64,000 nt of DNA from Mugil cephalus (taxonomy: Eukaryota > Chordata > Actinopteri > Mugiliformes > Mugilidae), in the NCBI RefSeq assembly GCF_022458985.1, contig NC_061774.1, positions 8,484,616 through 8,548,615 on the forward strand, written 5' to 3'. This document shows, one piece after another, positions 4,401 to 44,567 of the stretch. Below the pieces are notes generated by a model that saw only the letters and a program-made list of their open reading frames with translations, made no database searches and had not been told where the DNA came from. Numbering within the stretch: the first letter of the stretch is position 1; each line of letters begins with the position of its first letter. Made by a program: the position numbers and the translations under genes.

Positions 4401-7400
4401 TTATCCTGTCCTCAGTCCGGTTGTGACCTTTCAAGGGCCACACAGTAAAATGCGGCGACATACACACGCATACACCTGCACCCTTTGGGCGTCTGAAACC
4501 TTGACCTAGTTCACTTTTTCTACAAACCGTGTCCCCTTTTGTAGCGCTCTGTTGTCTCTATTAATGACTCAAGTGCCTGCTGGATGTAGTTCAATTTATA
4601 TCTTCTTCTGCTGTGTTCCCGTAGCTTGTACCAGAGCAATAAATCAATACCAGAATCAAACAACTTCTACTTGTTTTAACAATACATTAGCCCCGTGCTG
4701 CACTGTGTAGTTAAACGATTCCAACCATGTGTAGCTGCGTTTCTGTTTGTGTCAGGTGGGAGTTGGATGAACATCTGAAGTTGTTAAAAAAAAAAAAAAA
4801 AAAAAAGTAGACCAGACAGTTTTCCTTTCTTCCCGCGGGTCCTCAGGGTGCTGCAGGGCGAGTACAGGCGGCTCAAGTGGAAACACGAGGAGGCGGCGTC
4901 AGTTCCCATGCTGACTGAGGCGGGAGAGGGCGGCCCGGGCTCGCCCACGGCGGAAGGGCAGCAGGATGAGGAGCTCCTGGCCGAGGCACGGGTCCTCCGG
5001 CAGCACAAGACGCGCCTGGAGACCCGCATGCAGATCCTGGAGGACCACAACAAACAGCTAGAGTCCCAGCTGCGCAGGCTCAGGGAGCTGCTGCTACAGG
5101 TACAGCCACTCACCTCTCAGACAGCATGGGTGGCAGAGAGTCATGGAGAGAGTTGGAGATTTACTAAGGAAGTGTCCTTAAGTTCAGTGAACTGACTTGT
5201 AACTTTGCAACAGTTACACAAATATAAGCTAATTGGAAGTGTGTGGTTTGATCACGCTTTATTATCTGCTCTGTGCAGGAAGCTTCATACTCGTTTTCTT
5301 TTACTGTTCATGTCTTTTTTGTGGCTTTTGTGGCGGTTTCATTTTTATTTCTCTGCGCCAGAGCTGAAACATGTTTTATACTATTTTTGGGCTCATGATT
5401 GTTATTGCAGCTGTCGCTAGTGATTGATAACCCAACCCCATGAATCAATTATAATAGCAAATACTGGAATCTTCACAATTGTATCGCATGCTGTGCATAT
5501 CTGTCGCATTATTAATACATTAAGTATATTTTACAATAGCACTAACTGTTTTTTAACTAAATATACAGATCTAGATGGATGAAAAGAGTCCTTAAAAATG
5601 ATTGATTGTTTTGTGTAGAACGTTTTTAATTGTCTGCTCTTTTGGGACAAAAAACAAAGAGCTGGAAAGCGTCTTTACATCAGCATTGGAGCTGATTCCG
5701 CTTTTCTCCCTCCATTTACATGATAAAAATGTCACAACGGTAACAAATATTACAAATCTCAATTTAACCAAAAACATGAACATTTATTGAAATCAAAGGA
5801 TATTTAGGTCGGTAGCACCTCCAGCAGCACAAGGCTGCCTGTGGATGCGCCTGTCTGTAAATCTTACTGGGGGAATATATAACTATGAACGCACCCGTGT
5901 ATCTGTATTGTAGTAGCACTTCAGATTACTGGAGTCTGCTAGTAGGACTAGTTGTAGCTACACTGCTGCTCACGGTATTTATCCTTATCGCCAGTACTAC
6001 GCCAGGTTAACAGCATCTGCTGCGTCAAAGGGCTCTTGTCAGCAGTATTTTTTCAGAACTGCAGTTTGAATAAAAGGCACCGAGTGATAAATTCAAGTTC
6101 AGTGGCTTTCGACATTAGCTAGCACAGGTATTCAAATTCATTATCATAAGTAGAAAAGGAGAGGAGGGTGGAGGTACAAAAAAAAAAAAACTATTTGAGA
6201 ACAAAGAAGTACAGTACAGAAAGAGGATGAGCTTTGAAGTAGTTTGGAGGCACTTTCACATAAAAGGATTTACTTCAGAATGAAGGGAAGGTGTGACGAA
6301 CGTAGATAGAGGAGCTGGAAACTGACAGACAGTTAGCGGTTACTAAGATCTAATAAATACCCAGCGGGGCTAGAGTAGACTTAGAGGAAGAGGGACACGA
6401 TACTGCTCCTTCAGGTTGAAGTCTCGGAATAAAAGTGTGTGTGGAAGTGGAGGAACATATTTCTGGGTAAAGAAAATAGATTTTTTTTCTTGGAAAAAAA
6501 CAAACAAAAAACAACATCATAGTTTAATTTCCTGAGAAAATAAAATCCTGTTGTCTCTAGCGGTACACTGTACCGATCATTCTTCCCAATCTCTGCAGAC
6601 ACCTCAGTTTCCCTGCAACTACTGAACTTACTCGTCTCTAGAGTGTTGCTGCTACAAAACATGGTAGGATGCATATAATTTCTGATATCATGCTTCTTGT
6701 CTCTATAAAGTCAGTGCATTTCAAAGTTCAAAGAGACAGAAACGGCCAAAACGAGGAACCTAACGCAGGAAACACACCTGAAGATACAGATTGTCAGCCA
6801 GGAAGGGTACAGCTGCCACCAGATCGCCAGGAAGTGTAGATGTGGTCCTTCAGCAGTTGGATTCACTCTGCAGAAATACAGACGAACCAACTGCTTGGAA
6901 GACAAACCAGGATCTGAGAGGGTCCAAGGGTTTCTTCAGAGATCACCTCATCCTGATTCACATGTCCAGTTAAAACCACTGAATGACATCACAGGAGCTC
7001 CACCAGCAGTGTTCAAACCAAACTGGTGTTCTGTGTTCCACCTGCTCTGCATGTGGTCAACTTTTAGATGATGGCTTAAGGTCCTACAAGACTGTCAACG
7101 GACCCCTGATCAATGAGAGGTTAACCCGATGTCGTTTGGCCCAAGCACAAAGAACTGGACAATGGAGATTCTGTGGTCAGATGAGTCCAGTTTCCAGCTT
7201 TTCCTGCTAATGTGAGGGTACAGAAGACCAGGAGAAGCATTATCTCCAGCATGTACAGTACCTACATACAGTATCATGGTTTGGGGATGCATCAGTGCTG
7301 CTGGTGTTGGTCATCTCACTGTCTGTGATGGCACATTGAACTCTGCTAAATATTGTGCCGTTCTCCAAACCCACACACTCCCTTCTGCACGTGCTCTGTT

Positions 7401-8681
7401 CAGTCAAGGTCCAAACTGGTGGGGAACATGTCAGACAGGATTAGGACAAATAAATATTAATTTGATGATGTGTTGGTTTATTTATGTTTTGCTCAGTTTT
7501 GGACACATTCTCTGTTATTTGTTGACTCTGATACTGACAATGTTGAGAACTGACGTAATGAAACTGTCAAGAATTTAGTTTTGTTAGTTTTTCATGTAAA
7601 TAAAAAAACCAAATATAATTTGCATGTGTCTGTCAAATGCAGCCACACCTTTTGAACCACAAATATTTCTTGATAATATTTGAGACTGTGTAAAATCTTA
7701 AGTGTCCAAAACCTTCTCTCCACCACTGTCTGTATAATTCTGCTCCGTTTGTGCCGTTTGAGGACCGCTAGCAGAGCGCCATCAATCTCCACATTCATTA
7801 CCATGTGAAAGGCCAGATCGCTCAAAAACATGATAGATATGAGAAATCATTTGGAGCGAATGATAATAAGTCTTTTCTTCAAAACAGCCCAAAGACGATT
7901 CCGAGGCCAACGGATCAGAGCCGTCGACCTTGTCTTCCCCCGTGTCTGGGGGGGGGCACCACGGTGAGCCAGCCAGCAGAGAGACCACCGACACCGAAGC
8001 AGCAGGTGAGCGACGTGCACCCGGGGTTTGACACAGGCACGCATGTTGAATGCGAAACCACGCATCCCTCTCATTCTGCACTTATGTGTGACATTCTCTC
8101 TGGGCGGGTTTGCCAGGAGATGATTTGGAGCACGAGCAGGATACGGTGCTGCAGCTCCAGGAGGTCATAGAGCAGCTGAGAAACGTCTTCCCGTCAGAAC
8201 CGGGTGAGTTCGTCTCGGCTGCACGGATCTTTGCCGGCGCCGCCGCTCCGCACTTCAGAGACAGACTCTTTGCTCCGTCGCGGCCCTCGGGATTGTGAGA
8301 GATGGAGAGGAGAACAAATATGTACTGCTGCGGGTCGATAGTCGGGGGGAGGGGCCGAGAGATTAAATGGCAGAGAGGAGGAGTAAGATAAGAGGGAGTC
8401 TGTAGCACAGAAAGATGGAGAGCGTCACTGTCACACACTTTACAAACTCTCCCATTCCATTTAAACTGCAATTTCTGAGCCTGCCAAAGCCTGTACTTGA
8501 ACAAAGAAAGGGATTATCATAATTATAGCCTTTTTTTCTTTTTCTTTTTCTTTTTTTTTTTAGTTGTAGCCAAGAACATTTTCTTGGGCTTGTGCATGTA
8601 TTTCAAACCTTGTAAAATCTTTTCCTTTTTTTTTTTATTTCCTTACATTTCCTAATTTCAGGCACCACATCACACATCTAA
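1461..8681 (+). CDS. drp2: Dystrophin-related protein 2, C-terminal exons (partial, 5' end outside window)
   Basis: Membrane-associated cytoskeletal scaffold of the dystrophin family; DRP2 is known from Schwann cell and neural dystroglycan complexes. Exons: 1461-1526, 3614-3760, 4847-5099, 7888-8005, 8117-8203 and 8662-8681, all GT-AG, with phases that join into one frame. The 66, 147, 253, 118 and 87 bp sizes track dystrophin exons 73-77 as I remember them. The first exon encodes LAEMESQNCSFFTDSLSPDE. The third contains RRLKWKHEEA, EELLAEARVLRQHK and RMQILEDHNKQLESQL, the C-terminal coiled coil that binds dystrobrevin. These residues fit DRP2 better than dystrophin or utrophin, which have SYLNDS-like and RLKQQHEHKG-like sequences. 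The fourth exon ends in TTDTEAA, shared with human DRP2. The last exon codes only GTTSHI before the TAA. ZZ, WW and spectrin regions lie upstream of the window. Confidence 0.93.
2279..2312. repeat. Tandem 11-bp repeat, three copies
   Basis: The unit TGTGTAGCGCA occurs three times head to tail in a drp2 intron. A (GTTT)n run of about 27 bases follows at 2451-2477. Confidence 0.85.
6700..7580 (+). mobile_element. Decayed Tc1/mariner-like transposon in a drp2 intron
   Basis: Translated pieces resemble a Tc1-like transposase. Around 6983-7200 there are remnants of the DNA-binding part and the first catalytic block (LTRCRLAQAQR, then a frame-shifted DESSFQL). At 7276 the typical MVWGCISAAGVGHL core follows, with a DGTLNSAKYCAVLQTH continuation. 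Frameshifts and stops break it into several frames, and no third catalytic block with QQDN is intact, so it cannot encode an active enzyme. Terminal inverted repeats were not located with confidence; the edges are approximate. Confidence 0.65.
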
Positions 8682-12352: not shown

Positions 12353-15300
12353 CTACACTGATGGAGTGCGGCCGCTTTCAGTTCCGCCGCTGGTGGCTTT
12401 GTTCCCGGAGCTCGTTGGGCCTGGGTCCGGTGCAGCCTGTGATTGGCGTTTGACCTTCTTTCTGGCCTTGTCACGCGCTGATCTCTTGCTCGCTGCATTA
12501 TCTTTGCCTGAGCTCGTGGGCGCAGCGCCGCTATCTTTATCTGTTGCTTGATTATCTGGTGCACGTGGCCCGGCTTCAAGGCCCTCGACCCGCTCTGCGT
12601 TTTCATCATCTATCCCTTCTCCTCCTGCTTTCCCACACTCCGACTCTTCATTACTCCGCTCTGCTTTCACATCTGGATTTTTCTCTGTTTCTGTGTCATC
12701 CACTTCCTCTCTCACAGCAGGGGGGGCTTTCTCTAAGCTTTCCTCTTCTTTATTCTTACTGTCTTCAGTCTTCTTACCCGCTTTAGTTTTTTCGTCCGCG
12801 GCTTTCTGAGAAAATTTCACATTCTTCTTGCTTGCTGCGCTCTTGGCCTTGCTTCCATGAGGCCCCCACTTCTCCTGAGTCACATCCCAGTAAGTCTTGT
12901 TCTTGCGGGCGTTCATCACGCGAAGGTTCTCGCACAGCTTTTTCAGTTCCTGGCGAACAAAGGGTTTGAACTTCGGGTCCAGTCTCTCGACCGTGCCGAA
13001 GTCCCTCCGAGCCTCATCCCCGTTGCACAGAGCGGCGTGCGCTCGGGCCCTTTGGTACACTGCCTTAAAGGTGCCTGCGGGGTATGAGAAAAGAGAGTGA
13101 ACTTGGGTGAATGACAAAACTATTCACATGCGAGGACCACGGGAGGCCAGCCAGAATAAAGCGAGGGTAACTGATAATTTAAGATGAGACGAGGATGACG
13201 TAACCGCGCTCGGCGCTGGTCACGAGACGAGTAAAAGCTGGAGCGGAGTAAATGAAAGGAAAAGAGAAACACGAGAACACCAATTCCAGACCATCCTCAA
13301 CTGTAAATAATTCATCATAGCAGAAGCAAGGAGAAAACAAGAAAACAATGAATTCATTTTTGACTGTGATGTCCATGGGTGTGTGCCGGAGGAACAAAGG
13401 AGGGAGAGAATTGCTGTTGCGAATGTTTGGTTTCTTTCTCGGGTAAACACAGCGATCAAGGATTGACGAAGGCAGGCGTTTGCTCACGGCCGGGCAAACT
13501 TAGGAACTTCCTTCAATATCAAAAAAAATAGTTCCCTCCCGCGCTAAGAGCCGTCTTCACTCCAGCACATGTTACCTTTATGCTTTTTCAGCAGCTTGTC
13601 GTTGAGCTCCACCACTTGCTGGTATTGCTCCAGCTCCAGCATGCAGTGGCTGAGGTTGAGGCTCAGGGGAAGGCGCACCTTCTCCAGCGACTCCCAGTCC
13701 TCGCCGCCCTGATCCACCTGCTGAGAAACGAAGAGAGCACAGGGCTGACGGGAGGTGGAAAGGAAGAGGGCGGAGAAGGTGGCGGTGCTGATGGATGACA
13801 AAAACGAAAAAAAAAGATGTGTAAAATGTTGGGAGGAATGATGAAGAAGGCTGGATGTAGGAAGAGGCGGCCGAAGGCTGTAAGGGTTGATGAGAAGAGC
13901 TAGTTTGTTAAGTGAGAGAGGTAGTGATGTGCGGATCGATACCGCAGTATTGATATTTACGATGCCAGGTCTTTACGCTCTAAAATCCATTCTCAACTCA
14001 AAGTATTGATACTTACGATACCTCACTCATTGGAGGTAATGTAGGAACACAGCAGAGTGTAACGAAACCACTGAGTTGTGGCAACACAACAAACCTCAGA
14101 TTAAACCACAACACAGAATATGAGGCGTTTATGGTGAGGAGGACAGAAGAGGAGAGCACAGTGTCATAATAAAGTTATTGATGAATAACTGACGTTTCTG
14201 ATTTGAAATATACCACTTTTTTTTAGGACGTAAGGTTTACGGCAGTTACATACCAACCCTACCGCACGTATTTGAAATAAGAAAATTCATATTTTAACCT
14301 GTATTATTTGAATAGCTTCATTTTGAATTAAAAATTATGGTAATTATATTTATAAATAGCACTAGACCAAGTGTACAGTAGGTAGGGGGTCCCTACTTAA
14401 TCTCTCCATCATTTTGGGGTCAACATTGAAGACCCCTGCATTAGTGTGTGTTTACACAAAGTATCAGTATTGGACCGGTGTCGCCGATACCAGCCTGAAT
14501 TTTACTCAGTATCGGATCAGAAAGGAAAATCCATGGTGTCGAACATCACGAGGGATGAGAGGCACCACGGACTTGGACAGTGAGGTGTGGCACAAAAGAG
14601 AGAGATGTTAAAGAAAGTGAAAAAGCAGAGGCGAGCAGTGTGACAGTGACAGCTCTGTGGGAACCGTTATTTTTAGCACCCTTTCTCTGCTCCTCACTTC
14701 GTCAGCATACCTACAATGCCACAGCTGCTCTTCAGAGAAAAGGCAACAACGACACATGATTACAATTTTCGAGCCACAGTCAGCCGTCATCGTTTTGTGC
14801 GACTTCTCTCTGGCACGTTTGGCTATTCATCACGTTGAATGTGCCGCGACAAAGGCCGCCGTGGCAAGAGGCGATCCTCAAGTCCACCTGGACGTCGCCA
14901 CAAAGAGCTTCGTTTCACCTCCCACACAGCCACTTGAATTGCTTTCCCGCAACATCACCTCCTCACCTGTTAGCCTTACCTTGTTTTGGAGGAAGTCCAC
15001 ATATTCTATAGCCTCTTTGAACTTCACGGCAGCTTCTTCAAAGTGCTGTTCTTTAATGAGGAAGTTTCCCTCGTCCTGCAGCAACATGATCAGCCTTAAC
15101 ATCTGCTGCCAGTCCTTCCCCTCTGTTTTGTCACAGGCATTTAGACCGATAGAAGAAGAAGAAGTTTCCTCCTTAACGCCGGTTCCCTCAGTTGGTGTAA
15201 TCTTCTTCTCTTTGAGGTCATCTCTCTGAACTTCTGAACCACTTTCCTTCTCCACCTCACTTTCATTGCCTTGCTTTCCATCTTCCACCCCTTCCTTCTC

Positions 15301-17899
15301 TTTCTCCTCCTCACCGTCACGCCCCTCTTTCTCCTCCTCCTCCTCCTCCTCCTCTCCATCACTTTTATTCCCCTTTTTCCCCAGCATGTTCCAGTACTGC
15401 TCCTTCTCCTCCCAGTACTTCTCCCTCATGCGCTCCGACAGCGCCTTCAGCTCTCGGCTGACGAGCTGGGCCAGAGTGACGTCCAGGTGGGCCACCATGT
15501 TGAAGTCTCGGCGGGCCTCCTTCTCGTTCCACACGGCAGCGTGGGCCTTGGCTCTCTTGTAGTAGCCCTTCACGCAGTCTGAGAAAGAGAAAGAGAAGTG
15601 AATAAATACGTGGGACTTATATCTAATACAGAGATATTTGATAATACTGAAGGTGAGGTGACATTTAGAACGAGGAGTAGGTGTGTGCTGTCATTATATG
15701 TGTTTCTCATCAGAACTGAGGGTACAGTTTTATCATTCACTAAAACCTCCCGTCTTAAAGCCAAAGTTTGACATTTATCAAAATGTGGTTATTTGCATTC
15801 TGGCAGAGAGTCAGGCCTGTTAGTTTTGGATGCGTTGGTGGTAGTTGTTATCTTTGGACGGAGTCAAGGTGCCTGTCTCCAAACTAAAGTCACTGTTCCG
15901 CTTGACTTAATCAGTCAGAGCAAGTAAGTGAAATGTTTAGACGCGCATATAAAGTGCCTCTGTTCGGTACAAACTGGTGGCTCCACTTCCCTGCTCCTCT
16001 GCATTTAATTTCTCTCAGTGTCAAATCTTTATTTAGCCGAGAGTTAAAGATATTTTACTGTTGCCTCCAGCAGCAGCAGCAGAGACACTGCAGAGACTTT
16101 TCTAAAGACCCACTGGGTTGCAGGGAGGAAAGCAGCCGACTTAAACTGACACAGACAACATGACAACGTGATGACAAGGGGAGCAACAGGGAAAAGAAGA
16201 AGAGACAAAAGTGTGAACAGACAGGAAATGAAACTGAAGATACACACAGCTGAAAAGGAGAGGAATGTGTAGCAATGCTTGTGGAGGGCTGAGAAAGGCT
16301 GCGTTTTTGTGACAGCTGCTCGAACTGGGCCAGTGGAGCTCACAAACTCCCGCCCACCTTTTTTTTTTTTTTTTTTTTTTTCTTATATTTTCATGCTCAC
16401 TCACAGGCAGGTTTCCTCCTCCAGCCACATACACACACACAGCGCTCCATCTTCCTCTTTACCTGTTCTTCCATCACTTCAGGTGACACTACGTTGACTT
16501 ACATCAACTTCCTAGAAACTCACCTCGGGCCAAGAGCCTCCCCTTGGCCTTATTCTGAACCTAACCTCAGCCTAACCTCATAAACAAGCCTTCATCCTAA
16601 AACATTATGTTACGGGGACTTGTTGTTCCACAGGAGAAAGGGGAGAAGAGCAGGAGTAATGCACACACAAACACACAATAAGGAAAATGCAGTGCAAAGG
16701 AGAAGATCCAGGTTGAGGATATAGAGTGTGAAATAAAGACTGCCTCAGTGCATCCTATTTCTGGGTGAGGGGTATAATTCATGAGGCTCTGAAGTGGAGA
16801 GTGTGCCAGCGTGTGAAGCCTCTCTAGGATTATATGAGTAGCCATGGGTATGACAGTACAATTCCCAAGGCTGCTCCAGCAGTAAAACCCTCTGTATCGT
16901 CAGCCTCAACCCTCCTACACACTCTTATTGAAGACACAGTGGTAACATGCAGCAACGGTGAACCCACAACAGGCTTCAGACTCTCATCTGCCAGAAGACT
17001 GTGAAACTTTTGCTCATACCAGAAGAGGAAAGTAATGTGTGCGAGCCCTTAATTTACTACTCGGTAATTACAAAGAATTATTGAGGAAATAGATGGTATG
17101 CATTGACGTCACTGTCGCCTGGAGCCACGCCCCCTGAGTGACAAAAACATGGTGCGATGTGTCAATAAATAACGTTACAGACCGTGAAAAATGTGGATTA
17201 TCGGATTGAATTAAGGGTAATTGAACTCGACAATGATGCCTAGTATGGATTTGGGAAAGTGGATGAGAGTCTGTTTAAGTTAATTTTAGGTCATTTCAGT
17301 TATGATAAACGTAGCTTAATTAAAGATGCTAATGCTAATAGCTTCACTGAGAAACGTTAGCAATAAAATACTGTAGCGTCAAAGGATGATGAGGAGTGAT
17401 CACAAATATTCCGTTTATTGCTTTATTGTCATTTATTGAACTGAAATAGTTACTGTAACTACGCCAAAACAACAACATCGACAAGCTTATCTATCAGCTC
17501 TCAAGAATGTAACTTACTGTAAGACGTAACAAGGTATGACTTCCTCAGAAAAATACAACATAAATTAATATTACCTGATACTAAATGTGAACCACAACAC
17601 CAGGTTTCGGTGCCTGAATTCTAGCGGGTTCTTCGTAATGCAGCGATCCATTTATATCTCTTTATCCCCGACTGCTTTTCAGATCTGTTGGTACAGTCTA
17701 CAGCTCTTCACTTTTAAAAATAAATAAATAAATGTATATATGTATTTTACAACGTAGATGCTGTTAAAGCCCGTGTTTCAAGCTAATGCTGCTAATCTAA
17801 ATGTGTCTGTCACTTTTTTTGCTACTCCGTGCCTGTAACCATGGAGACTTTGTTGGCTGTGACGTCACATGTGTGCTCTCTTGTTTGCTTTCTTGTCAA

Positions 17900-17947
<48 letters not shown>

Positions 17948-20900
17948 GTCAAAAGTGTGTGTGTGTATATATATATGTATACAGCAAAGAGACATTACAG
18001 TCAAGTTAGTTTTGCATTAAGTCTTGTTGCAAACTGCATCCTGGCTGCGCACAAGTTGCAACAATCCTATTACCCTTATAATTAATGCTTGTCAAGAAAG
18101 CAAATATTTATGAAAATGTCACAGTTACAGGTAATATTCGTCCTCAAGTACCCCTAGAAAAGGCGGGGATTTAAGAATTCAACGCCTGCAGTTCAATTCA
18201 TATTCTTTGGGATTTTTCATTTATTTAACACTGCTCATAATCTATTTCATCAATAAAGATTGGTGTCAGGTAGTATTTTTTTTATAAAGAAAGTCCAGCC
18301 GAGCTCACAAAAATGGAAATCCGGACCTCCTTAAACTATTAATGATAATATATTAAATATTCTTCTCAAATTGAGATTTTAAAGCGTTCTAACGAATAAG
18401 CGAACATGACAAGTATTAAAGATCTACATACTTATTAATCAGTAATGACACTTATATACATTAAACAGCTAAATCATGCTGATAAAGAAATTCTGCTTCC
18501 TTTTTTGCCCTTTTCTGAATTTGGGGAAAATGTGGAAGCCTTGAAGTTAGAGGACTGTGGGCATATTGTATGTTAGCTGGTTCACATCCCTGGTGGGGGA
18601 AGTCAGTGAATAAAAACCTCGCACTATTGAACTAGCTCTGCACATACGATTAACCCTCATTGCTCCGGTGAAGCCGTTCAGCTCAGAGGTTTGATAGAGC
18701 GGTGCGTGGTGTAAATGTGAACTTAAATGACATGAGGAAGAAAGAAAAATTGCAGAGCCCTGTCAATTCTACTTGGAAAAAGCAGTTGAACGATGCATCT
18801 CGGTTAGTAAAATTATCTGAATAAGTCTGTTCAGTTTAAACAAGTTTTTGGGTTTACCTTTGTGCTTCTCCAGCAGTTCAGTTGTGTGCTCTATGACTTC
18901 ATAATACTCCTCCAGCTCCAACATACACTGACAGTAGTTCAACTCCAGGGGGACAATCATTCGACCCAGGTTAATGTAGTCCACATCCCCTGGCATCTCC
19001 TACACACATGCACAGAAGGAAGAACAAAAATACGTTCGTCGTGCTGCTATGTTGCTCGGCAGCTCCTACACATATTTTAATAATTCATACCAACAGTTCA
19101 TGACTTTGGGACATCTCTGTCCAACCGAGGCTCACTAGTTGTTTGCACAAAGGCCAATATCTGTAAACATCAAACTTGTGAATGCTGCCAAAAATCACAA
19201 GCAATCCTGCATGTTCTCTTGTCAACATCTCCCTTCAGTATTCCTCCATTCTTACAACCCCCCCTCTCATCATAGCCAGCTCCTCACAGCTCTCCCTCCT
19301 CTCTCCCTTGCCAGCCCACCCACCCGACAGCCTGTAATCAGAGCCACAGTGAAGCAGAGCAAAACAGGAAAACATGAGCGTCCCCCTGGAAAAGAATGAG
19401 CAGCGTGTCCCAAAAACCTAAAATCCTGAGAAAACCTCAAAATGTGCGAGCCCGCGGTGCAGTCATTTAGCTCCCTCCGTCCCGGCTCTCTCCCCTCGTC
19501 CATCACTCACCCTGGACTGGACCGTTTTCAGCAACAGGACAGCTTCTTTGTACTTGCTTGCAGCCTCTCTGAATCGTCTCTGCTTGACCAGGGCATTGCC
19601 CTGCATGTGGAGAGATGGCACCGTCTGCAGCTTCTCGTCCTTTTCCATCATCCACGACTCTCGGTGGTAGGACATGGGGTCTCCTACCTGGGAGCAGAGG
19701 GGGCAGGACAAGGGCACAACAGAAGGAAAATGTCAAACAGAGAAAAAAAGACACAGTGTTGAGGCACTTTGCTATTTGCCATTCATTATTCTTCTGTTCA
19801 GCCGCGCTACAAAGAATAAATTGTGGAGTTTAACGGCTCTGTCTAGCCACGCAGCTGGTTTCAGGTAAGCGCTTTATTGCACCTGCTCAGGTGGGAGTTA
19901 GGCAATGCTCTGCTGGAACTAAGCGATGTCAACACAACCAGTAATTAAAGTGTTCTGCAATAACAAGTTTATAAAAAGATATTTCATCTGGTTGGACAAG
20001 GTAATCATTTGTGCTGAGGAGCAGGTTTGAAATAAATCAGCAGCCAGGACCCCATATCTTAGCACTATGTAAGAAGACATTATGCAACATTATGCATGCC
20101 ATTTCTACTTTAGATATTTAAGTACGTTTTCAGAAGTTGGAATGAATGACCTACTGCTTTTTTTTTTTTTTACCTATGTAAAGGATGTAAACCTTTCCAC
20201 CTCTCAAGAGTTGTCATCTACAAAGAAAGTAAAAGATTTAATTTACTACTAGAAAAAGATAGATTAAATTTACTACTACTGCTGCTGCTGCTGCTGCTGT
20301 TGGACTCCCTGGTGAGTCTCAAGCAGATTCTGGTAATATTATATTTCAAAACTGAATGTCTAAGGCAGAGAGGGGCTTGAGATTTGTCAGTGGATTTTAG
20401 AAATTGGTATATGTTGTTGTGTTCAAAATAATAACAGGCCAGCATCACTAACCAGATCAATCAGTGTGTTTGGTAGAAGTGATATTTCTACATGGGGAAA
20501 AAAATAGTAGCAGGTTTAATAGAGTAATAGTGAACTAGCAGTCATGACGTGCATGCTGCTGATTCTGTGAAATTGAATCATTAATTGAGAGGGGCGTGTT
20601 CAAAATAAATAAACAGGTAGCTCTTATTCACAGACAAAGGCAGCAAATGTTGTACATTGCTGGTTAGAGTGCATTTCTGTCCGAAGATCTGAATAAAATG
20701 GGTCCTTCCAGACATGGCTGAGAAGAACAGTGCACTTTGATTAAAATGTTCATTAAAGATGGGAAAACACAGAAAGAAGTGTAAAAAAAAACTATTGGGT
20801 GCTAAGCTAAACTGATCCCATTTGCTTTAAGATGGCAAACAAAACCGAGAGGATGTGGAAGAAAATGGAAAACTATCATTCAAATAAATCGAGACTCAGC

Positions 20901-23641
20901 CAACGATCCGCTCCAGGTAGATCTGAGAAGGCCTAAAGTCACCTGTGAGCAGTTGGGTATGTGAAGCCATTTTATGGACTGATGAATGTAAGATTGTGGA
21001 TTGTTCTTTGTGGGCCAAGAGGATGCAGACAGTTTGTCAGTTGACCCCAAACACAGAATTCAAGTCACAGCACACTGTGAAGCATGGCGGCGCCAGCATC
21101 ATGATAGGGGGATGTTTCTTATACTTAGACGTTGGGCTTATTTATCACATACTAGGGATCATGAATCAGTTTGAATATATCAAAATATTTGAAGAGGTCA
21201 CGTGGCCTTATGCCCTTGAAATGAGTTTTTAACAAGACAACAAGACCCCTCAAGAGTTGTCATGTACAAAGAAAGTAAAAGATTGTGAAAGAAGTGGTGC
21301 TCCACACAGATCTGCAGTGGTTCTCAGAAACATTGGTTGTACAATAATTTAATATTTATACAGAAAATGTCTGAGTTTGTGAAGGAAAACGTCATTTTTT
21401 TAACAGCCTAACAATCCATTTTCTTCACTTTCTGTAAAGTAATATCACATTTGCTAAATATCTCTTTGTGTGTTGACTTGTAATAGAATGTGCAATGTTC
21501 CCGACACATTTGTGTGTATATATTTACATACTCACTGTTTTAAACACTCTGCTATTATTGGACACAGCGTTAGGTGTAACAGTGTTAAAAGTTGAGCTGA
21601 AAATAATTAGAGGCCAGCACTGTCTTGAACATAACATTTAGCCAATGGTGCTTACCTGCAACAGCTCCATGATAAATATCAGTGGCTGAGGAGTTCGCAT
21701 TATCTCATCTAGCTCTGGGAAACCAGTTGAGTGATAGTGGAACATGTTCCCCATGCCACACATGTGTCTCTGGCCCTCTAGGGGGTCTTTCCCTTGAGCA
21801 ATCATCCTCATTCCCTTGGACACGATGGGGTACAAGCCGGTGTGCTGCAAAATTACCACATCGACAACAACATCAGCACAGGGTGTAACACAAGACAGAT
21901 AAATGACGCTAATCATGCTAACCCACAGTGCTGATACACAGTGCCAATCAGTCCTACAAGAAAACACAACAAGTAGCCTCCTATTTCACTTGCAAATTAC
22001 ATTTTCCTCCAGATGGAAAAACACTAACATTTGCACAAAAAGATTGCTGTGTTTGTGTTTTGTAATACCAAGTATGTAGGAGGCTACAGAAGGTTAATTC
22101 ATGTGCATCGTAATGAGGAACAAAAAGCTTTCCCTCCTCACTCGTGGACACTTGTGGGGACCTCTTAGGGGGCCTGAAATCTCAGAGTATGTTGGTGCCT
22201 TCTGTGGCTCCACTCACAATGGCATCGCACCAGAACTCGGCCACCTCTCCGATCCTCATGGACGTCAGCAGGGTCTCCCAGACCTCCATCTTGAACATCT
22301 TTCCGACGAAGATCTCAGCTGGTCTGCCAGCCAGTCGACTGTCATCGATGACTGTCCTCTCAAAGTTGTCCAACAGAGTCTGGAAATGGAACACCAGCTT
22401 GGACGCCAAGAGAGATTGAGGACAGGAAGATTTAAAGAGATGAGTGTAAGGGGCTTCCTGAGGGGCCACTTTATTAGGCCCATTACTGTATGTTGTTCAA
22501 CACGATATGCAATAAACACGTCAAACATGAATTACTCTACTACTTCGCACTTTAAAACACATACAGTGTTTTACAAGAACAGGAATTATTATGAGAGATT
22601 CTATAGATTTCAATCTTTACCAACATCAAACCTTTTACTTATTGATTAAGAAACTGTTTTATTTGCTTTTAACACAGCATGTAGACATGCAAACAAAAAG
22701 CCTATATAAATTTAAGCATGTTTTCTGCCTCTGACATAGAGTTCATAAATGATGGATTAAATCAAGTTTGCCTTGAACAAACTGCACCAACTGTACAGTT
22801 TGCTGAAGCTTTCCCTTTAATCCAAGTGCCTGTTATAATCTGTAGCTTTATAATTTACAATAAGGATTTTTGAACTGAATGCTGCCATGATATATTCCAG
22901 ACACTTCTTATGCAACCCAGACATGTGGGTTTTCATGCCTTCCATCTGTTTTTGTGCATGTGAAACGCTTGCAACGACTTCACCGTCATCCTGACTGTAA
23001 AATGATGCTGGATGCCTGTAACCTTCTATTTATAGCCCGACAGATTGTGTATAATACGCCGATAACTGTGTAAGCAACTGGGAATCACCTCAACAGGAGG
23101 CAGCACACGCGCACGCACACATACACCGCAAGACAGACGCACAGGTAAATGGAAATTCACGCTGGTATTGTCATGGAAAATGTTTGTCACAGTGTCCAGG
23201 CTTGGTGCCATATGGCTGCATGTGACTAAGAAGGGGGAGAAAAGTCGGAGACCGGCAGATCAGTGGATGAACAGAAACAGAGACACAGTGCCAAAAAAAC
23301 ATGTAGCAATTTGGTTGACCAAATGTTTGCTCTGTGTGGATGAGCCAGATACAGAATAAATTTTCTCACTTCATGAATTATTCAACAGAATCTAATTGAA
23401 GTGGGCAATGCAACACACAGCTAAAATCGGGGACAAAAATAGACATTTTTTTTTTCCTGTAATTTTTCTGGTGTAATGGTAACTGTACAGGGACTCATTC
23501 TGAGTTTAATTCTACCATCATCAGGCTGAGGGTGATTTAGGATACCTTTGTCCCAGGTGGAAAGTGTGGCAGTGGTCCTGTGCCTCCAGCCAGAATTTTC
23601 TTCCTGACGCCTTGGTGATTGAGCAGGTACGTCTCTTCCAT
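12353..23641 (-). CDS. AIP/AIPL1-like co-chaperone with two TPR domains
   Basis: Likely Hsp90/Hsp70 co-chaperone of the AIP/AIPL1 family; AIPL1 folds photoreceptor PDE6, but this client is inferred, not shown. Exons in coding order (- strand): 23641-23546, 22397-22218, 21844-21656, 19687-19511, 18999-18858, 15578-14980, 13720-13576, 13074-12353. They sum to 2250 bp, 749 residues; human AIPL1 has 384. All introns are GT-AG. Residues about 1-155 form the FKBP-like domain (TVIDDSR, MFKMEVWETLLTSMR, AEFWCDAI|HTG, IAQGKDPLEGQRH), which lacks obvious isomerase residues. TPR set 1 spans about 165-325 (LELNYCQCMLELEEYYEV; KGYYKRAKAHAAVWNEKEAR). An acidic linker with poly-Glu at about 336-343 follows. 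TPR set 2 spans about 412-575 (LSLNLSHCMLELEQYQQVV; KAVYQRARAHAALCNGDEAR). A charged low-complexity tail ends in GRTPSV. The ATG at 23641 opens METYLLN-like sequence as in AIPL1. Orthology to aipl1 itself is not established, so no symbol is given. Confidence 0.9.
14300..14438 (-). mobile_element. Partial copy of a hAT-like nonautonomous element
   Basis: Shares GTAGGTAGGGGGTCCCTACT, then a CTCTCCATCA block and a CATTGAAGACCCCTG end, with the copies at 48321-48832, 39772-40340 and 58686-58964. Only the end with the GAAGACC terminus survives. It lies in intron 6 of the AIPL1-like gene. Confidence 0.6.
17095..17877 (+). mobile_element. Nonautonomous DNA element, copy 1 (CRE-like termini)
   Basis: Begins GGTATGCATTGACGTCAC and ends near GTGACGTCACATGTGTG. 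It is homologous along most of its length to 61472-62210: shared blocks include GCCACGCCCCCTGAGTG, GATGCTAAYGCTAATAGCTT, AAATATTCCGTTTATTG and CCGTAACCATGGAGA-like sequence. No transposase frame is present. The superfamily is unknown to me. It lies in intron 5 of the AIPL1-like gene. Confidence 0.65.
17901..17980. repeat. Compound (GT)n(AT)n microsatellite
   Basis: A GT run followed by a TA run, then the unit GTCAAAAGTGTGTG...TATATA repeated once more in shortened form. It starts immediately beyond the right end of the transposable element at 17095-17877. Confidence 0.9.
20203..20238 (+). repeat. Direct repeat, 36 bp, left copy (right copy 21249-21284)
   Basis: Starts CTCAAGAGTTGTCAT and ends AAGTAAAAGATT. 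It matches 21249-21284 in 35 of 36 positions, about 1.05 kb away. The left copy lies just outside and the right copy inside the Tc1-like element annotated here, which suggests a rearranged or nested element. Confidence 0.8.
20276..20299. repeat. (CTG)n trinucleotide repeat, intronic
   Basis: About seven CTG units between the left 36-bp direct repeat and the left end of the Tc1-like element. It lies in intron 3 of the AIPL1-like gene, on the strand opposite to transcription. Confidence 0.85.
20418..21565 (+). mobile_element. Decayed Tc1-like transposon in intron 3 of the AIPL1-like gene
   Basis: Inverted ends are visible: GTGTTCAAAATAATAACAGG on the left, and CTGCTATTATTGGACAC on the right, whose reverse complement is GTGTCCAATAATAGCAG. 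The frame at 20945-21232 reads WTDECKI, then KHGGASIMIGGCF and GIMNQFEYIKIF, the usual Tc1 transposase middle region. A stop follows just before the expected QQDN block. A second internal GTGTTCAAAATAA at about 20596 repeats the terminus. Inactive by stops and substitutions. Confidence 0.75.
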
Positions 23642-25127: not shown

Positions 25128-28100
25128 TCACTTCTCGATCAGTGAGTCCAGCTGCTCCTGCAGGGAGGCCAGCTGTTGGAGCAGAAAATAGAAGGCGTGA
25201 TTGATACCCAACAGCCCCAGGGTGTAATTGGAGGGTAAGTGGATGACGATTAACATGTCTTTTCACATTAATTTGTTTCCTTCATTTGTCAATACAAACA
25301 ACGACCCAAGAGAGTGGGCGGCCCCTATGTCATAGTTGCAAAAAAAAAAAAAGGACACCGCTGGTAGCTGCTGACAAATTAAATTTTACTTGATTGGATT
25401 TGAACTTTGCTTTGAGGCACAAAAATGGTCTGGTTTAAAAGGACAGCAAGCACAATGGCGATCATGGTATTCATACGAGATAAATACATGCACACAGCTC
25501 GAAAGCAGCGGAAAGCTCACAGCGAGCACCGGTACTCCGCTTTCACAAAAAGACTCTTACCTGCTCCATCTCCCGCTCCTCCTGCTGAATAATCTCGTCC
25601 AACAAGGCTTGGAAGCGGTTCTGTGAGAGGGGAGAGACAAACGAGATTTGTTCGAGTCGACATGCTGAGCCTCATTAAATTGTGAGGGCTTTAAATGTGT
25701 GTCTGCCTGAGCTGCTCATGTCACTATCTCCTCTCTGACAGAAAGGCCACTTGGAATGCCAGTCAGAGACGGATGACCTTTTCTACACGGCTGTGATAAT
25801 AACGACTGGAGATGGGGCCGTGACGGTCCCAAACACCGGGCAATGAGAGCTCTAAATGGCAACATAAAAAAGGGCCGTGTCTGCTCGTGTTTCACTCATT
25901 GTAAAGTCTCCACTAAACGGCACCGGGCAGAAGATTTTTATGTCATATATGGTGCACGGCAATGTTTTGATAGTGAACGGCCACCCAGAGAGATGTCATA
26001 TTTATGGTTTTTGAAATGCAAATATTTTTTTTTTATTTATTTTTTTTAAAACTGCCTCCAACAATGTGTGTAATCAACCTAATTTTTTAGGTTTTTCACT
26101 TCACAGCAGAATTTATGCTGCATGAAGACTTTTGCCTTCAAGCTCATCTGCATATTCGTGTTTACACGGTGCACATGCAGACCTACTTTCTGAATGGCTG
26201 TGTGATAAAAGTGCGTGCGTGCTCGCTGCTTACTTTGAGGGCCTGGTTTTCCACTTTCATGATGAGCTCCTCCTGCTGTTTTTTCCGGGCGCGCGTCTCT
26301 TGGAGCTTGGCCTTAACGCTGTTGATCTGCACCTGGTACTCCATCACTGGAGGGAAGAACGGGGACATTCGCGTGTTAGGAATGCCGTGAATAAATCCAC
26401 GAAAACACGCCACTTACGTTCCTGCGTTCGGTTAAGTGTGGGCAGATAATGTTGAAATGATGGAACATAATTTGAGGGCAACGCTGTGCACCTTAGCTTG
26501 CTTGAACAACGTGGATGCCTCCACTTCAGTCTGACAAATTGCTGGTAATTGGAACAATCAGTCCATTTAATAAAATTACGTGTTTCAGCGGGATGAAGCT
26601 CTAACAGACACAAATCAGTCTGCTCTGGGCCCCACACCGACTTCTCATTAATTCCAGCCAGAGTGGTAGCGTCGCACAACAACTTGTGGCTCCACCGCCC
26701 TCAAATTCTCCTAAACACTAATTGTATCCAGTTACTGCTTCTCTATATTGGAACTCAATTCTCTGATACAGCTGTTGTAACGCGCCAAATAAAGTCGGGC
26801 GAAGTCCCCGCACACTAGTCCATTACACAGCTGCCAAAAACATGCGCAGCCAGACTCCAACATGTTGGGGTTTAGGCTCTGCTGGGATGCTACTGTGGAT
26901 CTGACCGCTACTGTTGCTGACTGACAGCTCCATGTATGTAGATAAGGAGGCATTGTGCTGTCAGGCTGGACAGCTGCCTGAGCCGCACGCTGAGCCACAA
27001 CACCTGCCAGACCGGCCGGCTGAGAGCTGTCAGTGTGCGCATCTCTCTCGGTGAGGGCGCAGCATGTGTTTTCACGTTGAAGTCGGACTACGCGCTTGAG
27101 CGCGGTGATGTCTAGGTGACGTCTGACCTAGAAAACTCAGCTCTGATTAGAAGTCCACACACTCGGCCGTGGTTATTTTTTCCGAGGGTATCTGAGGGCA
27201 ATTTTGTTACGATTTTAAGTTGGAATCTTTTTAGTCGCGAAGCTCTTGGCTGTGAGCGCCGCGGTTTAAAAATGAGCTGCTGATAGAAGTGACTGAGCTG
27301 TCACTCCCAGGTCTAAAGTGAAAGCAGAGGCACAGTTCAGTACATTGGATACACATAAACAATCTGAGTATAAAAATACTCTTATGATAGAACCTTGGTC
27401 TACGCAGAAACCCCGACGTGCTCTCACCTATCTGGCTGTTCCTGTCGCTCTCATGCTGCGCGGAATCAGACTCGTTGAGTTTGTCTTGAAGCTGTCGGAC
27501 CAGATCATCCTCCGTGTCCATGATGTTCAGGTCCTCGTCCTCGTGCCGGTCCCCCTCGTCCTCCTCGTCCTCACTGGAGCTGCTGATGTCGTTGAAGATC
27601 TCCCTCAGTTCGTCTCGCTGGACTGGGCGCGCGGGGGACGCACATTAGTGTTATTAACACGAACACAAAGGAAGAAACAGACTCTGCTCTTGGCGTTACA
27701 GTACAAGTCGCAGAAGCGTAAACAAACTCGCTGTTTGTCCACTAGAGAGAAATAGAAAATTTAATTTTCCATATTAAAAAATCCCACTCAGTGCATATGT
27801 TGGTCATATTTCTAACAAATGCGAGTAATTCTTTTCAAGGCTTTGTTTGTGTTATGTGATTGTGTAAAACTCGAATGCCAGACAATATGGCATTATGAAA
27901 TGTTTCATATTTTAATTATCAATGGTGTCACTACAACGAAAAGTTGTACAGTGTCAATGGGGAATTACTGATGTGTTTTACTAGTGGTTATGGTAGAAAT
28001 AAATGTCCGTTGTACTGCTTTGCATAGACAAAAGATTGCGCCTGCTACCAAAGACACCTGCATTTTATCGGATTTTTAAAGTAAACATTATTTACCAGAG

Positions 28101-28979: not shown

Positions 28980-31900
28980 GGTAGCAGCTGGCTGCATGCC
29001 AGGAAACACATTAGCGATTAAAAACAGAAGGGGCCAAATCAATGTGGCTCGGCACCTTAAGGAAGATTTATTCAGAAGACAAAGTAGAAGTGTATTGCTC
29101 AAGCTCACTGGCTTTCAGTTTGATCAAAGCAATAGTGAAATTGCTTTTTTGCATGCCTTAGGGGCAAACTAAGATGGAAAGGCTTTATTTATATGTAAAT
29201 CTTAGTTTTTACTTTCACCACTGTTCCTGTTTTATGAAATGTAAATGTTGTGTTGGAAGATGGCCTGGGAAAGAGATGGATCATCAAACTGGATGCTAAG
29301 GAGACGGACGGGAAATGAGAAGGGACTGCTGCAGGGAAAATGGAAACGCCAAAACCTTCTTTTTCGCAGTCTTCCGAAATCTTCTCTTGCGCGTGTTCTT
29401 CAGGGGGCAGGTGACTGCAGACCGAAACAAGATGATTAGTCAAATCAAGTCAAAGTAAGTCAATTAGATGTGGAGGGCAAACTGTGCTTCCAAAACTGTT
29501 GATGTGCCAAGTTTTCAACACAAACAGAGCAGACAGCTGTTAGGTATAGATGCGTATCTACTCACTGCCATGATTCCAAATGAACTTCTTGTCCTTGTCT
29601 TTATCCTTCTTTTTGCTCTTGGGGTCAGTGCCAGTTGGCTCCTCCAAAGGAGGATAAAGGTCTCCATCTAGTGTACACACCAGCATCTAAACCATGGACG
29701 TGGAAAATATTAATGGCTTATTGTAATTAGCAAGAGGCAAGCTGAGGCAGAATCTATTCCTTTTTATTATTTTTTTTATAGTCAATAAACTGTAATATTA
29801 ACTTTAATTTACAATTAGAATCCTAAACTCATTTAATGTCTCAATGACGCTATACGTGGCTAAAAGCAAGTACTTTCATTGTACACTATGAAGAGGCAGC
29901 GGTTTACCTGGCAAACATCAGCAGTCTTGTAAAATGTCTTCTTGTCCACCGTTTTGAGAGACTCAATCATACAGGGCAGATCCACCAGTTTGCAGGCTAA
30001 AGGGACGCGGTCGACTCTAACTATGCCATGGTGACCGTCAGCTGCGAATAAGAGTTAAAGAAAGGGACAAATGATTGTTAAAGGGGTGATGACAGAACTA
30101 ACACCACTGTTAGACACACATAAAATAAGATGCATAGGATTTGGCAGTAAATATCTCAACTCAATTTTGTTGTTAAACTTCCACTTTTCAAAAAAAATAG
30201 GAAACATTGAAACAGTGAATGTTTACTTACAAACTACAAAGACTAAAAATGTACAAAGCCTGCCCAAAAAAAGTCGCCACAAAAAAAAACAACACCAAAA
30301 AAAGAAAACTACACACACACTCTAATATTTCGTTGGATCTCCTTTCGCTTTGATTACAACAGCATTCACTGTGGCACTGTTTTGAGAAGAAGCTTCTGCA
30401 ATGTCACCAGATTCATTTCCATCCAGTGCTGCATTAGTTTCTTTCTCTCAAAGCCTTCTCCGGCACATCCCAGAGATTCTCAATGGGGTTCAGGTCTGGA
30501 CTCTGTGGTGGACGATCCATGTGTGAAAATGATGTCTCATGCTCCCTGAACCATTCTTTCACAATTTGAGCCCCATGAATCTTGGCATTGACATCCTGGA
30601 ATATGGTCGTGCCATCAGGGAAGAAAAAAAACCATTGATTGAGGATTTTCAGGCAGACATTGGGCATTATGTTGCTGAACCAACTGCAGCAACCCCAGAT
30701 CATAGCACTGCCACTAGTGCCACTGACACTAGTCATGATGGGTGCATCACTTCACCTGCCTCTCTTCTTGCCCTGATGCCCCATCACTCTGGAACAGGGT
30801 AAATCTGGACTCATCATTTCAGATACTCCCTAGTGAACTGAAGCCTCACTGATTAGTGGTTTTCTTAAGGCTACACAGCTGTTTAGTCCCCTAAACAGCT
30901 GTGCTCTTACTTTCACTACTACACATAACCCTGAGTCCTACTGTTGTTTTTCCTCTATTTGATGTCACCAAACATTTAACTGATTGTTGATCATGATCAA
31001 TCAGGATTTTTTTCCGACCACATTTCTTGGACGTGCCCGTGCAATAAAAATAGTAAGCTGCCAACTGGATTTAACTAATAAACAAACAACTTAAACTTCA
31101 GAGAGGTGAACTGTTTTCCTGTTTTCTTTCTTTTCCTTCCATGTCATTGCGCTTTCATCTTTAAGGTCTTTATTGGCTACACACAGTGGAGCACTTTGAT
31201 GCATGAGATGGAGCATTATCCTGCATAAAAATCATGGTCTTCTTGAAAGATGCAGACTTTTTTCTGTACCACTATGTGAAGAAGTTATATTCTAGAAACT
31301 GGCAGTAGGTTTGGTAGTTAGAGTCCATCTTCAACCCGAAAACCCATCTGGTCCATCAACAGTCACACTCATATCATAGTTGTGGCACTTCAACTAGTGT
31401 GTCTTGTTCAGTGATGGTTAGATTTCAGTCTTTCCTACCTTGGCCATGTCTCAGAGCACTGAACAACTTGTGCTTCTAGGCACTGCAGGTAGGCCGCAGT
31501 ACTGGAATATGACAGCACTGGAGGATAATGGGTTCCTGGTAGCTTCAAGTTCGATTCTTCCCAAATCTTTGGCAGCTAATTTACGTGTTTTTCTCTCAGC
31601 AAGTTTGTCGCAGCCCTTTTTGGTTCTGTGGTCACGTCCTAGTATCTTGGCAATTTCAAGAGTGCTGCATCCCTCTGAAAGATGTTTTAGAGTTTTTGAC
31701 TTTTCAGAGTCTGTTAGATCTCTTTTCTGGCCCATTTTGCCTGAGGAAAAGTAATAATTGTGCAGACCTGATATAGGGTGCTGATCTCCAAAGGCCGCCC
31801 TCATTTTACAAACGCTCATCACCTAGCATGTTTAAATGCAATAGATATTTAAGTTTGTTCGGCTTCATGTTGGAAAGTATAATAACAATAAGAATGTGGA

Positions 31901-33314: not shown

Positions 33315-34439
33315 CTTCGTTTTAGTAATTTGGACGACGCAGTTGCATAAATATCGTTAAGGTATACAAAAAAGCAACAACCACGACGTAAAATCGATAC
33401 TGCTTAGCTAGCACAGCATTGCCACAGCCATGGCCGAAACAAAAATATAAAGAAGTGATCGGGTAAAGTGCTGCATTCAGGTCCTCCTCGGAAATCATGC
33501 ATTCATTTTCAGCACACTCGACACAGAGCTTATTGTTTGTCTTGCAGTCGTTCTAATGGTCATGTATATTATAAAATAATCCACATCTCCATATAAAGAT
33601 ACGTTCATACAGCGCGCAATGTCTTTTTAAATTAATTATAATTAATTAAGGACTGATATCCAGACAGAATTAGACACTGAAAGTTAATTTTCCGATAAAA
33701 AGAACATAGCATATATTAATTCTGCATCGCGAGATGTGTTCCACCGACGAGATTTGCAAACATAATACTACAAATAGGTTACTCGAATATTGATCAAACG
33801 AAATGTTTAACCTGTATTTTTTAAGCTTTTTTAAAAATTATGTTCATGTACTGATAAACAGGGGTTAAAATAAACGTTACAACAGAATCAGAATTATTTT
33901 ATTGACCTGAGGGGGAATTACTTTTACGTAAAATAAAGATTGTTAACGAGTTTGAAAAATATATTCTCTTAATAATAAAAATATTAATCTCGCAAAAGAG
34001 ATCATTTTATAACTATAGTAGATTTTTTTGAAAGAAATGTTTAAGGGACAGTTGGTCTCACTTCCTGCTCAGCATGACGAAAATAGGAAATTTCATAATA
34101 AGAGGCCACGGTTCCGATTTTTATCACCACCTGTGGAATTACTCCGTGAAAAACGAACGAACGGATATTTTAATTCATTCGCAGCTCTATAAAATTAGCA
34201 AACGTATTTTAGACAAAGATGTATGTTTTCAGGTCGATTTAAAATGCAATGGCAATTTTACGCTGAAATATACACGTTACACTTTCTGGAAAATTTACTT
34301 TTCACTTCCGGGCCGGAATTTGGTTCTCTGTTGCTGTCGTCTTCTTTCTGCCTACCCCCGTCAGTTCGTGAATAATATCTGCATAAAGTTTGTTTTTATC
34401 TCCGGCGACGCTGCAGCCTTTGGCCGCCGAAAAGCCGCA
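33315..34439. promoter_or_regulatory. Divergent taf7 / slc9a6 promoter region
   Basis: 1.1 kb separates the taf7 ATG (- strand) from the slc9a6 ATG (+ strand), so both promoters must lie here unless 5' exons exist elsewhere. No TATA box is convincing. The sequence is AT-rich in the middle and becomes CG-richer from about 34300. Paired ETS-type motifs at 34304-34319 are listed separately. Confidence 0.6.
34304..34319. promoter_or_regulatory. Inverted pair of ETS/GABP-type motifs
   Basis: ACTTCCGGGCCGGAAT is an almost perfect inverted pair of CCGGAA cores, about 120-135 bp upstream of the slc9a6 ATG. ETS/GABP pairs are common in TATA-less housekeeping and bidirectional promoters. Function is inferred. 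Confidence 0.45.

Positions 34440-44567
<10,128 letters not shown>

Follow-up and report, generated by a model that had tools for sequence, protein, structure and literature searches.

The 64,000-nucleotide stretch of the Mugil cephalus genome that was analysed (contig NC_061774.1, positions 8,484,616 to 8,548,615; referred to as the window) carries on its minus strand (23641-12353) an eight-exon gene, whose predicted product has an AIP-type FKBP-like domain at its N-terminus and, downstream of it, two TPR modules (set 1 and set 2). The gene and its second TPR module are confirmed at the sequence level, as a predicted transcript.

Gene model and domain order

Exon ends were picked by hand, then the reading frame and the splice sites were checked by script. 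All introns (7/7) are of the GT-AG type and the eight exons join in a single frame. The features of the gene are as follows.

Exon 1, 23546..23641, minus strand: start codon 23641-23639; N-terminus MEETYLLNHQG
Exon 2, 22218..22397, minus strand: FKBP-like domain (Pfam PPIase_AIP)
Exon 3, 21656..21844, minus strand: 189 bp, as in aip and aipl1a; FKBP-like domain with the insert region
Exon 4, 19511..19687, minus strand: 177 bp, as in aip and aipl1a; start of TPR set 1 (repeat 1)
Exon 5, 18858..18999, minus strand: 142 bp, phase 0 in and phase 1 out; repeat 2 of TPR set 1
Exon 6, 14980..15578, minus strand: 599 bp; repeat 3 and helix 7 of set 1, acidic linker of 88 residues, repeat 1 of set 2
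Start of intron 6, 14878..14979, minus strand: continues the frame of exon 6 until a stop at 14878 (ORF 14878-15690)
Exon 7, 13576..13717, minus strand: 142 bp (145 bp from 13720); repeat 2 of set 2
Exon 8, 12353..13074, minus strand: repeat 3 and helix 7 of set 2, then a charged tail of 172 residues; stop codon 12355-12353

The joined frame comprises 749 codons counting the stop, and encodes 748 amino acids when exon 7 starts at 13717. An alternative acceptor (CAG) lies three bases upstream; used from 13720, it gives an exon 7 of 145 bp and a protein of 749 residues. The 749 residues and the middle exons of 142 and 145 bp given in the original prediction thus hold for the CAG acceptor at 13720, whereas with the second AG the protein has 748 residues and exon 7 is as long as exon 5 (142 bp). 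Retention of intron 6 might yield a shorter protein, a possible isoform, in which one full TPR set is followed by a single further repeat.

The order of the domains is FKBP-like domain, TPR set 1 (residues 172-329), linker (32 acidic and 15 basic residues), TPR set 2 (residues 418-576) and charged tail. Within the tail, residues 705-718 form a basic stretch (KRSARDKARKKVKR; window 12446-12487, minus strand), which is possibly a nuclear localisation signal.

The three exons that add the second module (6-8) are free of internal stops, have intact splice sites and keep exon length and phase. Codon scores, for which exons 1-5 of the same gene served as the training set, are highest in the frame used for exon 6 (0.41) and exon 7 (0.35), the other sense frames scoring between -0.28 and 0.13. 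The score of exon 8 is weak (0.087, versus 0.062 in another frame that holds nine stops); exon 8 has one open sense frame, the sole stop of which is the terminal one. No stop interrupts exon 6, at the start of which lies repeat 3 of set 1 and at the end of which lies repeat 1 of set 2. A pair of neighbouring genes, one for an AIPL protein with a single module and one for a separate TPR protein, would also account for the presence of two TPR modules, and nothing further was found that speaks for it; because both modules meet in this single open exon of 599 bp, that reading is ruled out as vanishingly unlikely. In addition, a tblastn search of the window with the FKBP-like domain returned exons 1-3 of this gene only. 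The original claim of one protein instead of two adjacent genes is thereby upheld.

The N-terminal domain is a Pfam PPIase_AIP domain (residues 26-154, E = 9.4e-20, 71.8 bits with a cut-off of 27), and the best PDB matches of residues 1-333 are AIPL1 (397 bits) followed by AIP (362 bits). TPR set 1, with three repeats and helix 7, follows the FKBP-like domain and is encoded in exons of 177 and 142 bp as in aip and aipl1a of this fish. Pfam TPR hits fall in both sets; with set 2 alone, the third repeat only exceeds the TPR_2 cut-off (31.4 bits), and as a whole module set 2 is identified through comparison with AIP in the PDB. The PDB matches of set 2 are AIP (92 bits), AIPL1 (85), 3rkv, a putative peptidylprolyl isomerase (59), FKBP42 (49), FKBP52 (44) and Cyp40 (38). 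Judged by this ranking, which is led by AIP and AIPL1, set 2 is an AIP-type TPR module. Its derivation from FKBP51/52, Cyp40 or SPAG1 is ruled out by the bit scores (FKBP52 44 and Cyp40 38, versus 92 for AIP). The domain search and the PDB matches to AIP and AIPL1 therefore bear out an AIP-family co-chaperone with a second full three-repeat TPR unit, and the greater closeness of set 2 to another family, named beforehand as an observation that would speak against it, was not found, the nearest sequence being set 1. Members of the AIP/AIPL family have a single TPR module, whereas this gene has a second one in exons 6-8; by descent it is an AIP/AIPL gene, of variant layout. A search of the prokaryote and viral collections for relatives of set 2 gave 12 and 2 pattern matches, respectively, with none (0) confirmed, as expected for a fish gene.

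Relationship to aipl1b and the sister genes

In a gene tree of seven rows built from the FKBP-like domain and TPR set 1, including two AIPL1 rows from the PDB, which we take to be mammalian, the window gene falls on the AIPL side (support 100/99), outside the group of fish aipl1a and the two AIPL1 rows (98/98), where it is flagged as a long branch. A pairing of the window gene with fish aipl1a is disfavoured (p-AU 0.011, seven rows), and with it the reading of the gene as a fish-specific (3R) AIPL1 duplicate. The name AIPL1-like, under which the gene had been predicted, is accordingly right as to the AIPL side, but the gene is not AIPL1 itself. One of the PDB rows, chain 6px0 (AIPL1), is mammalian according to the excerpted text of a 2025 review (PMC12733016). 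The same text places zebrafish aipl1b in a clade AIPL-2, lost in mammals and amphibians, with platypus, birds and reptiles kept in the clade; the reference number attached to its AIPL-1/AIPL-2 statement corresponds to a gene-therapy trial in its own list. The peptide TYLLNH, encoded by the exon-1 guide target of zebrafish aipl1b (PMC5381001, in excerpt), is present in the window protein and absent from fish aipl1a, while DWHIHT, encoded by a zebrafish aipl1a primer in the same source, is present in the second AIPL gene of this genome (on contig C9, see below) and absent from the window gene. The placement on the AIPL side outside AIPL1, the TYLLNH peptide and the AIPL-2 clade together make orthology of the window gene to zebrafish aipl1b (gold rush), and membership of an old sister lineage of AIPL1, probable.

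The genome assembly (635 Mb, 24 contigs) was searched with set 2 as query. The search returned seven matches, five of them in the window gene, one on contig C2 and one on contig C9. Gene models were read for the latter two, with exon ends set by hand and frame and splice sites checked: the C2 match is aip and the C9 match is aipl1a, so that the genome contains at least three members of the AIP family. Both have one TPR module, after which the gene ends. Exons 3, 4 and 5 are of 189, 177 and 142 bp with the same phases in the window gene, aip and aipl1a, and exon 7 of the window gene again has 142 bp and runs from phase 0 to phase 1. No second TPR module was detected around aip or aipl1a by tblastn, in loci that extend to about 19 kb downstream of each gene (whole protein against L008-L011; separate domains against L008, L010 and L012-L015).

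Several neighbouring features were recorded in the window and around aip and aipl1a. Upstream of the window gene lie an exon with a sodium/hydrogen exchanger N-terminus (34032-34802, plus strand; best structure NHE6, 100.6 bits) and a LIM exon of a four-and-a-half-LIM gene (60507-60959, plus strand; best match FHL1, 2cur, 76.7 bits), a neighbourhood of NHE6 and FHL1 that is reminiscent of human Xq26. Coiled-coil exons at 3357-3779 and 4788-5195 (plus strand) resemble by eye a dystrophin-family C-terminus (DRP2-like), with nothing above the Pfam cut-offs; an acidic exon at 27231-27644 (minus strand) is by eye TAF7/TAF7L-like, with no Pfam hit. Fragments at 31451-31822 (minus strand) and 6709-7578 (plus strand) are by eye of Tc1-type transposases; the former has a Pfam helix-turn-helix below the cut-off and 6709-7068, a part of the latter, has no Pfam hit. 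Downstream of fish aipl1a there are CD225-domain exons (L010:6443-6925 and L013:4611-4886, minus strand), which may belong to a TRARG1/TUSC5-like gene, as on human 17p13. A serpin exon (L014:7491-7811, plus strand; 32 bits with a cut-off of 27) lies upstream of fish aip.

mRNA decay is expected, by the exon-junction rule, when introns lie downstream of a stop codon. In zebrafish, aipl1b is expressed in cones and is needed for the stability of Pde6c; in the gosh mutant a stop at Gln413 is accompanied by the loss of aipl1b mRNA and of Pde6c and by the degeneration of cones, the mRNA loss being ascribed by the authors to probable nonsense-mediated decay (PMC5381001, in excerpt). Together with the exon-junction rule, this mRNA loss suggests that zebrafish aipl1b has introns 3' of codon 413, similarly to the window gene and unlike single-module AIPL1. 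In the excerpted text of PMC5381001 the zebrafish protein is longer than 413 residues, which fits the layout of the window gene, and it is drawn with FKBP and TPR domains and a C-terminal region that is not homologous to the human proline-rich domain. It thus resembles the window protein in its exon-1 peptide, in its length, in the tail and in being further from human AIPL1 than fish aipl1a is; it differs in that the excerpts of PMC5381001 make no mention of a second TPR module, a comparison made with printed text. Where set 2 begins, the window protein has two Gln residues (419-420), which may or may not correspond to zebrafish Gln413.

The layout of the window protein up to the end of set 1 is that of its relatives. 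It shares with human AIPL1 and fish aipl1a the FKBP-like domain (56-60% identical) and a TPR module with a helix-7 extension, and with fish aipl1a the lengths of exons 3-5. Unlike the window protein, AIPL1 has one TPR module, after which fish aipl1a ends directly at helix 7 and the human protein continues in a proline-rich C-terminal region (PMC12733016, in excerpt). AIP has the same layout through set 1, equal lengths of exons 3-5 in its fish gene and the best PDB match to set 2, but it likewise has one TPR module, and its FKBP-like insert is of different structure according to the excerpted review. The original prediction knew of no described AIP-family protein with two modules. In our literature search, a second TPR module in such a protein was not found among the matches listed, which agrees with that claim, although automatic database entries may already hold one and the aipl1b protein itself is in print (PMC5381001, in excerpt).

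Origin and peptide groove of TPR set 2

The introns repeat between the two sets as had been predicted: the one after repeat 1 is in phase 0 and the one after EKHK (set 1) or KKHK (set 2) is in phase 1, each in the same alignment column in both sets. An ungapped comparison of exons 5 and 7 finds 81 of 142 bases identical (mean 36 and maximum 54 in 2000 shuffles). The match of intron columns and phases between the sets indicates an exon-level copy of an AIP-family TPR region, a conclusion that is well supported by the sequence comparison. The source of the copy is likely, but not proven, to be set 1 of the same gene. The two sets are identical at 63 of 158 positions (40%), whereas the identity of set 2 to the six other AIP-family rows is 33-39%, which makes set 1 the nearest. 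The best tree of eight rows pairs set 2 with set 1 with a support of 76/80, which falls short of a strongly supported sister relationship. The branch of set 2 is long (1.96, versus 0.39 for set 1), a mark of rapid evolution, and its placement is marked as unsure by the program. The private shared residues of set 2 (seven with set 1, six with the three AIP rows, nine with the three AIPL1 rows) do not decide on the source. That set 2 is instead an older or borrowed AIP-family TPR module would be compatible with the AU test on the eight rows, which rejects neither set 2 with AIP (p-AU 0.18) nor set 2 with AIPL1 (p-AU 0.12); the highest identity to set 1, the union of both sets in the best tree and a local duplication as the simplest account of the fused exon argue against this origin, which we regard as unlikely. 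The original claim of a past exon-level duplication hence stands for the copying of an AIP-family TPR region, but the phylogeny of the TPR sets, which had been named as a check, does not fully show that the gene's own set 1 was the source.

The peptide groove was scored at 12 AIP residues that are named as contacts of HSP90 and TOMM20 peptides in the excerpted text of PMC3534021. At these positions set 1 is identical to AIP in 8 of 12 cases, set 2 in 4 of 12 and the AIPL1 chain 6px0 in 5 of 12. Set 1 keeps H183, N187, N236 and K266 (4/4); set 2 keeps three of these four (N187, N236 and K266), with Gln in place of H183, and is further identical to AIP at P232. In set 2, Gln replaces H183 and K270, and Phe replaces V265 and L298. 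K265 of AIPL1, which according to published work (in excerpt) is needed both to bind HSP90 and to mature PDE6C in cells, is placed opposite K266 of AIP by our alignment. Among the 44 columns that are invariant in the six other rows (6px0 left out), set 2 keeps 27 and has lost 17, with H183 of the groove and the tryptophan in the VWN stretch among them. The groove of set 2 is thus conserved in part, and may bind something other than a chaperone tail, or nothing.

Functional readings of a two-TPR AIPL protein

HOP/STIP1 and RPAP3 have two or more clamp-type TPR modules per chain, which can serve two chaperone tails; to our knowledge, they have no FKBP-like domain and no kinship to the window protein beyond TPR. 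That the two TPR sets of the window protein function as two clamps, as the original prediction suggested, is a hypothesis, given that set 2 keeps N187, N236 and K266 but neither H183 nor K270. In the mechanism that we propose, the TPR exons would have been copied in the aipl1b (AIPL-2) lineage, and the copy joined in frame downstream, with the fusion point within the former last exon. The product, in which an acidic flexible linker would separate the TPR sets between the FKBP-like domain and the charged tail, would aid HSP90 in maturing cone PDE6 (Pde6c). Set 1 with its helix-7 extension would dock HSP90 similarly to the single TPR module of AIPL1, which in published structural work (in excerpt) binds closed HSP90 at 1:2 through the TPR groove and the helix-7 extension, while the client would be held by the FKBP-like domain. 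AIP binds HSP90 peptides with an affinity of 9.5-18.6 uM (PMC3534021, in excerpt). By way of its own, altered groove, set 2 would tether a further EEVD-type tail: the one left free in the same HSP90 dimer, or that of HSP70. This two-TPR aipl1b co-chaperone, with set 1 on HSP90 and set 2 tethering a second EEVD-type tail, is put forward tentatively, at slightly less than an even chance. We infer the expression of set 2, its binding of a chaperone tail and the identity of that tail, the expression of zebrafish aipl1b being no proof that set 2 is expressed.

Set 2 could be expressed and have changed its partner, binding a client or a photoreceptor protein (e.g. PDE6 gamma or guanylate cyclase) in place of chaperone tails, so that the two TPR modules would bridge chaperone and client. 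The Gln and Phe substitutions in the groove and the alteration of 17 of 44 otherwise invariant columns are consistent with such a change, and AIPL1 is reported to interact with the PDE6 gamma subunit (PMC8857470, in excerpt). Set 2 nevertheless retains N187 and N236, which contact the carboxylate directly, as well as the Lys at 266, and its groove is about as AIP-like as that of AIPL1 6px0. A changed partner is the main rival of the proposed mechanism, but is considered somewhat unlikely. The same divergence could be taken further, set 2 and the tail being a poorly constrained translated extension, a relic of the exon duplication, with residues 1 to about 330 as the active protein. What speaks for it is that set 2 sits on a long branch, that exon 8 has a weak codon score, and that the excerpts of PMC5381001 say of the zebrafish C-terminal region no more than that it lacks homology to the human proline-rich domain. 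The fact that three exons have stayed stop-free with intact splice sites, exon length and phase, that 27 of the 44 invariant TPR columns are retained and that the best matches of set 2 are still AIP and AIPL1 makes a relic improbable.

Loss of AIPL1 is a cause of blindness in children (LCA4), and the way in which PDE6 is matured by HSP90 and AIPL1 is a standing question. A stronger form of the proposed two-clamp co-chaperone would be a bivalent photoreceptor factor, in which one AIPL-2 molecule occupies both tails of the HSP90 dimer, or bridges HSP70 and HSP90 like HOP, with the FKBP-like domain holding cone PDE6; we consider this rather unlikely. If true, bivalent AIPL-2 would replace the second AIPL1, which is weak in the published 2:2 complex with HSP90 (in excerpt), and would be a dedicated, faster cone PDE6 assembly factor of fish, from a lineage that mammals except the platypus have lost according to the excerpted review (PMC12733016). 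If zebrafish Aipl1b shares the layout of the window protein, the gosh stop at Gln413 would fall close to where the second TPR module begins, and its C-terminal half would have been overlooked so far. A natural two-TPR AIPL protein would allow HSP90-AIPL stoichiometry to be tested directly, and might be relevant to how the work is divided between rods (aipl1a) and cones (aipl1b).
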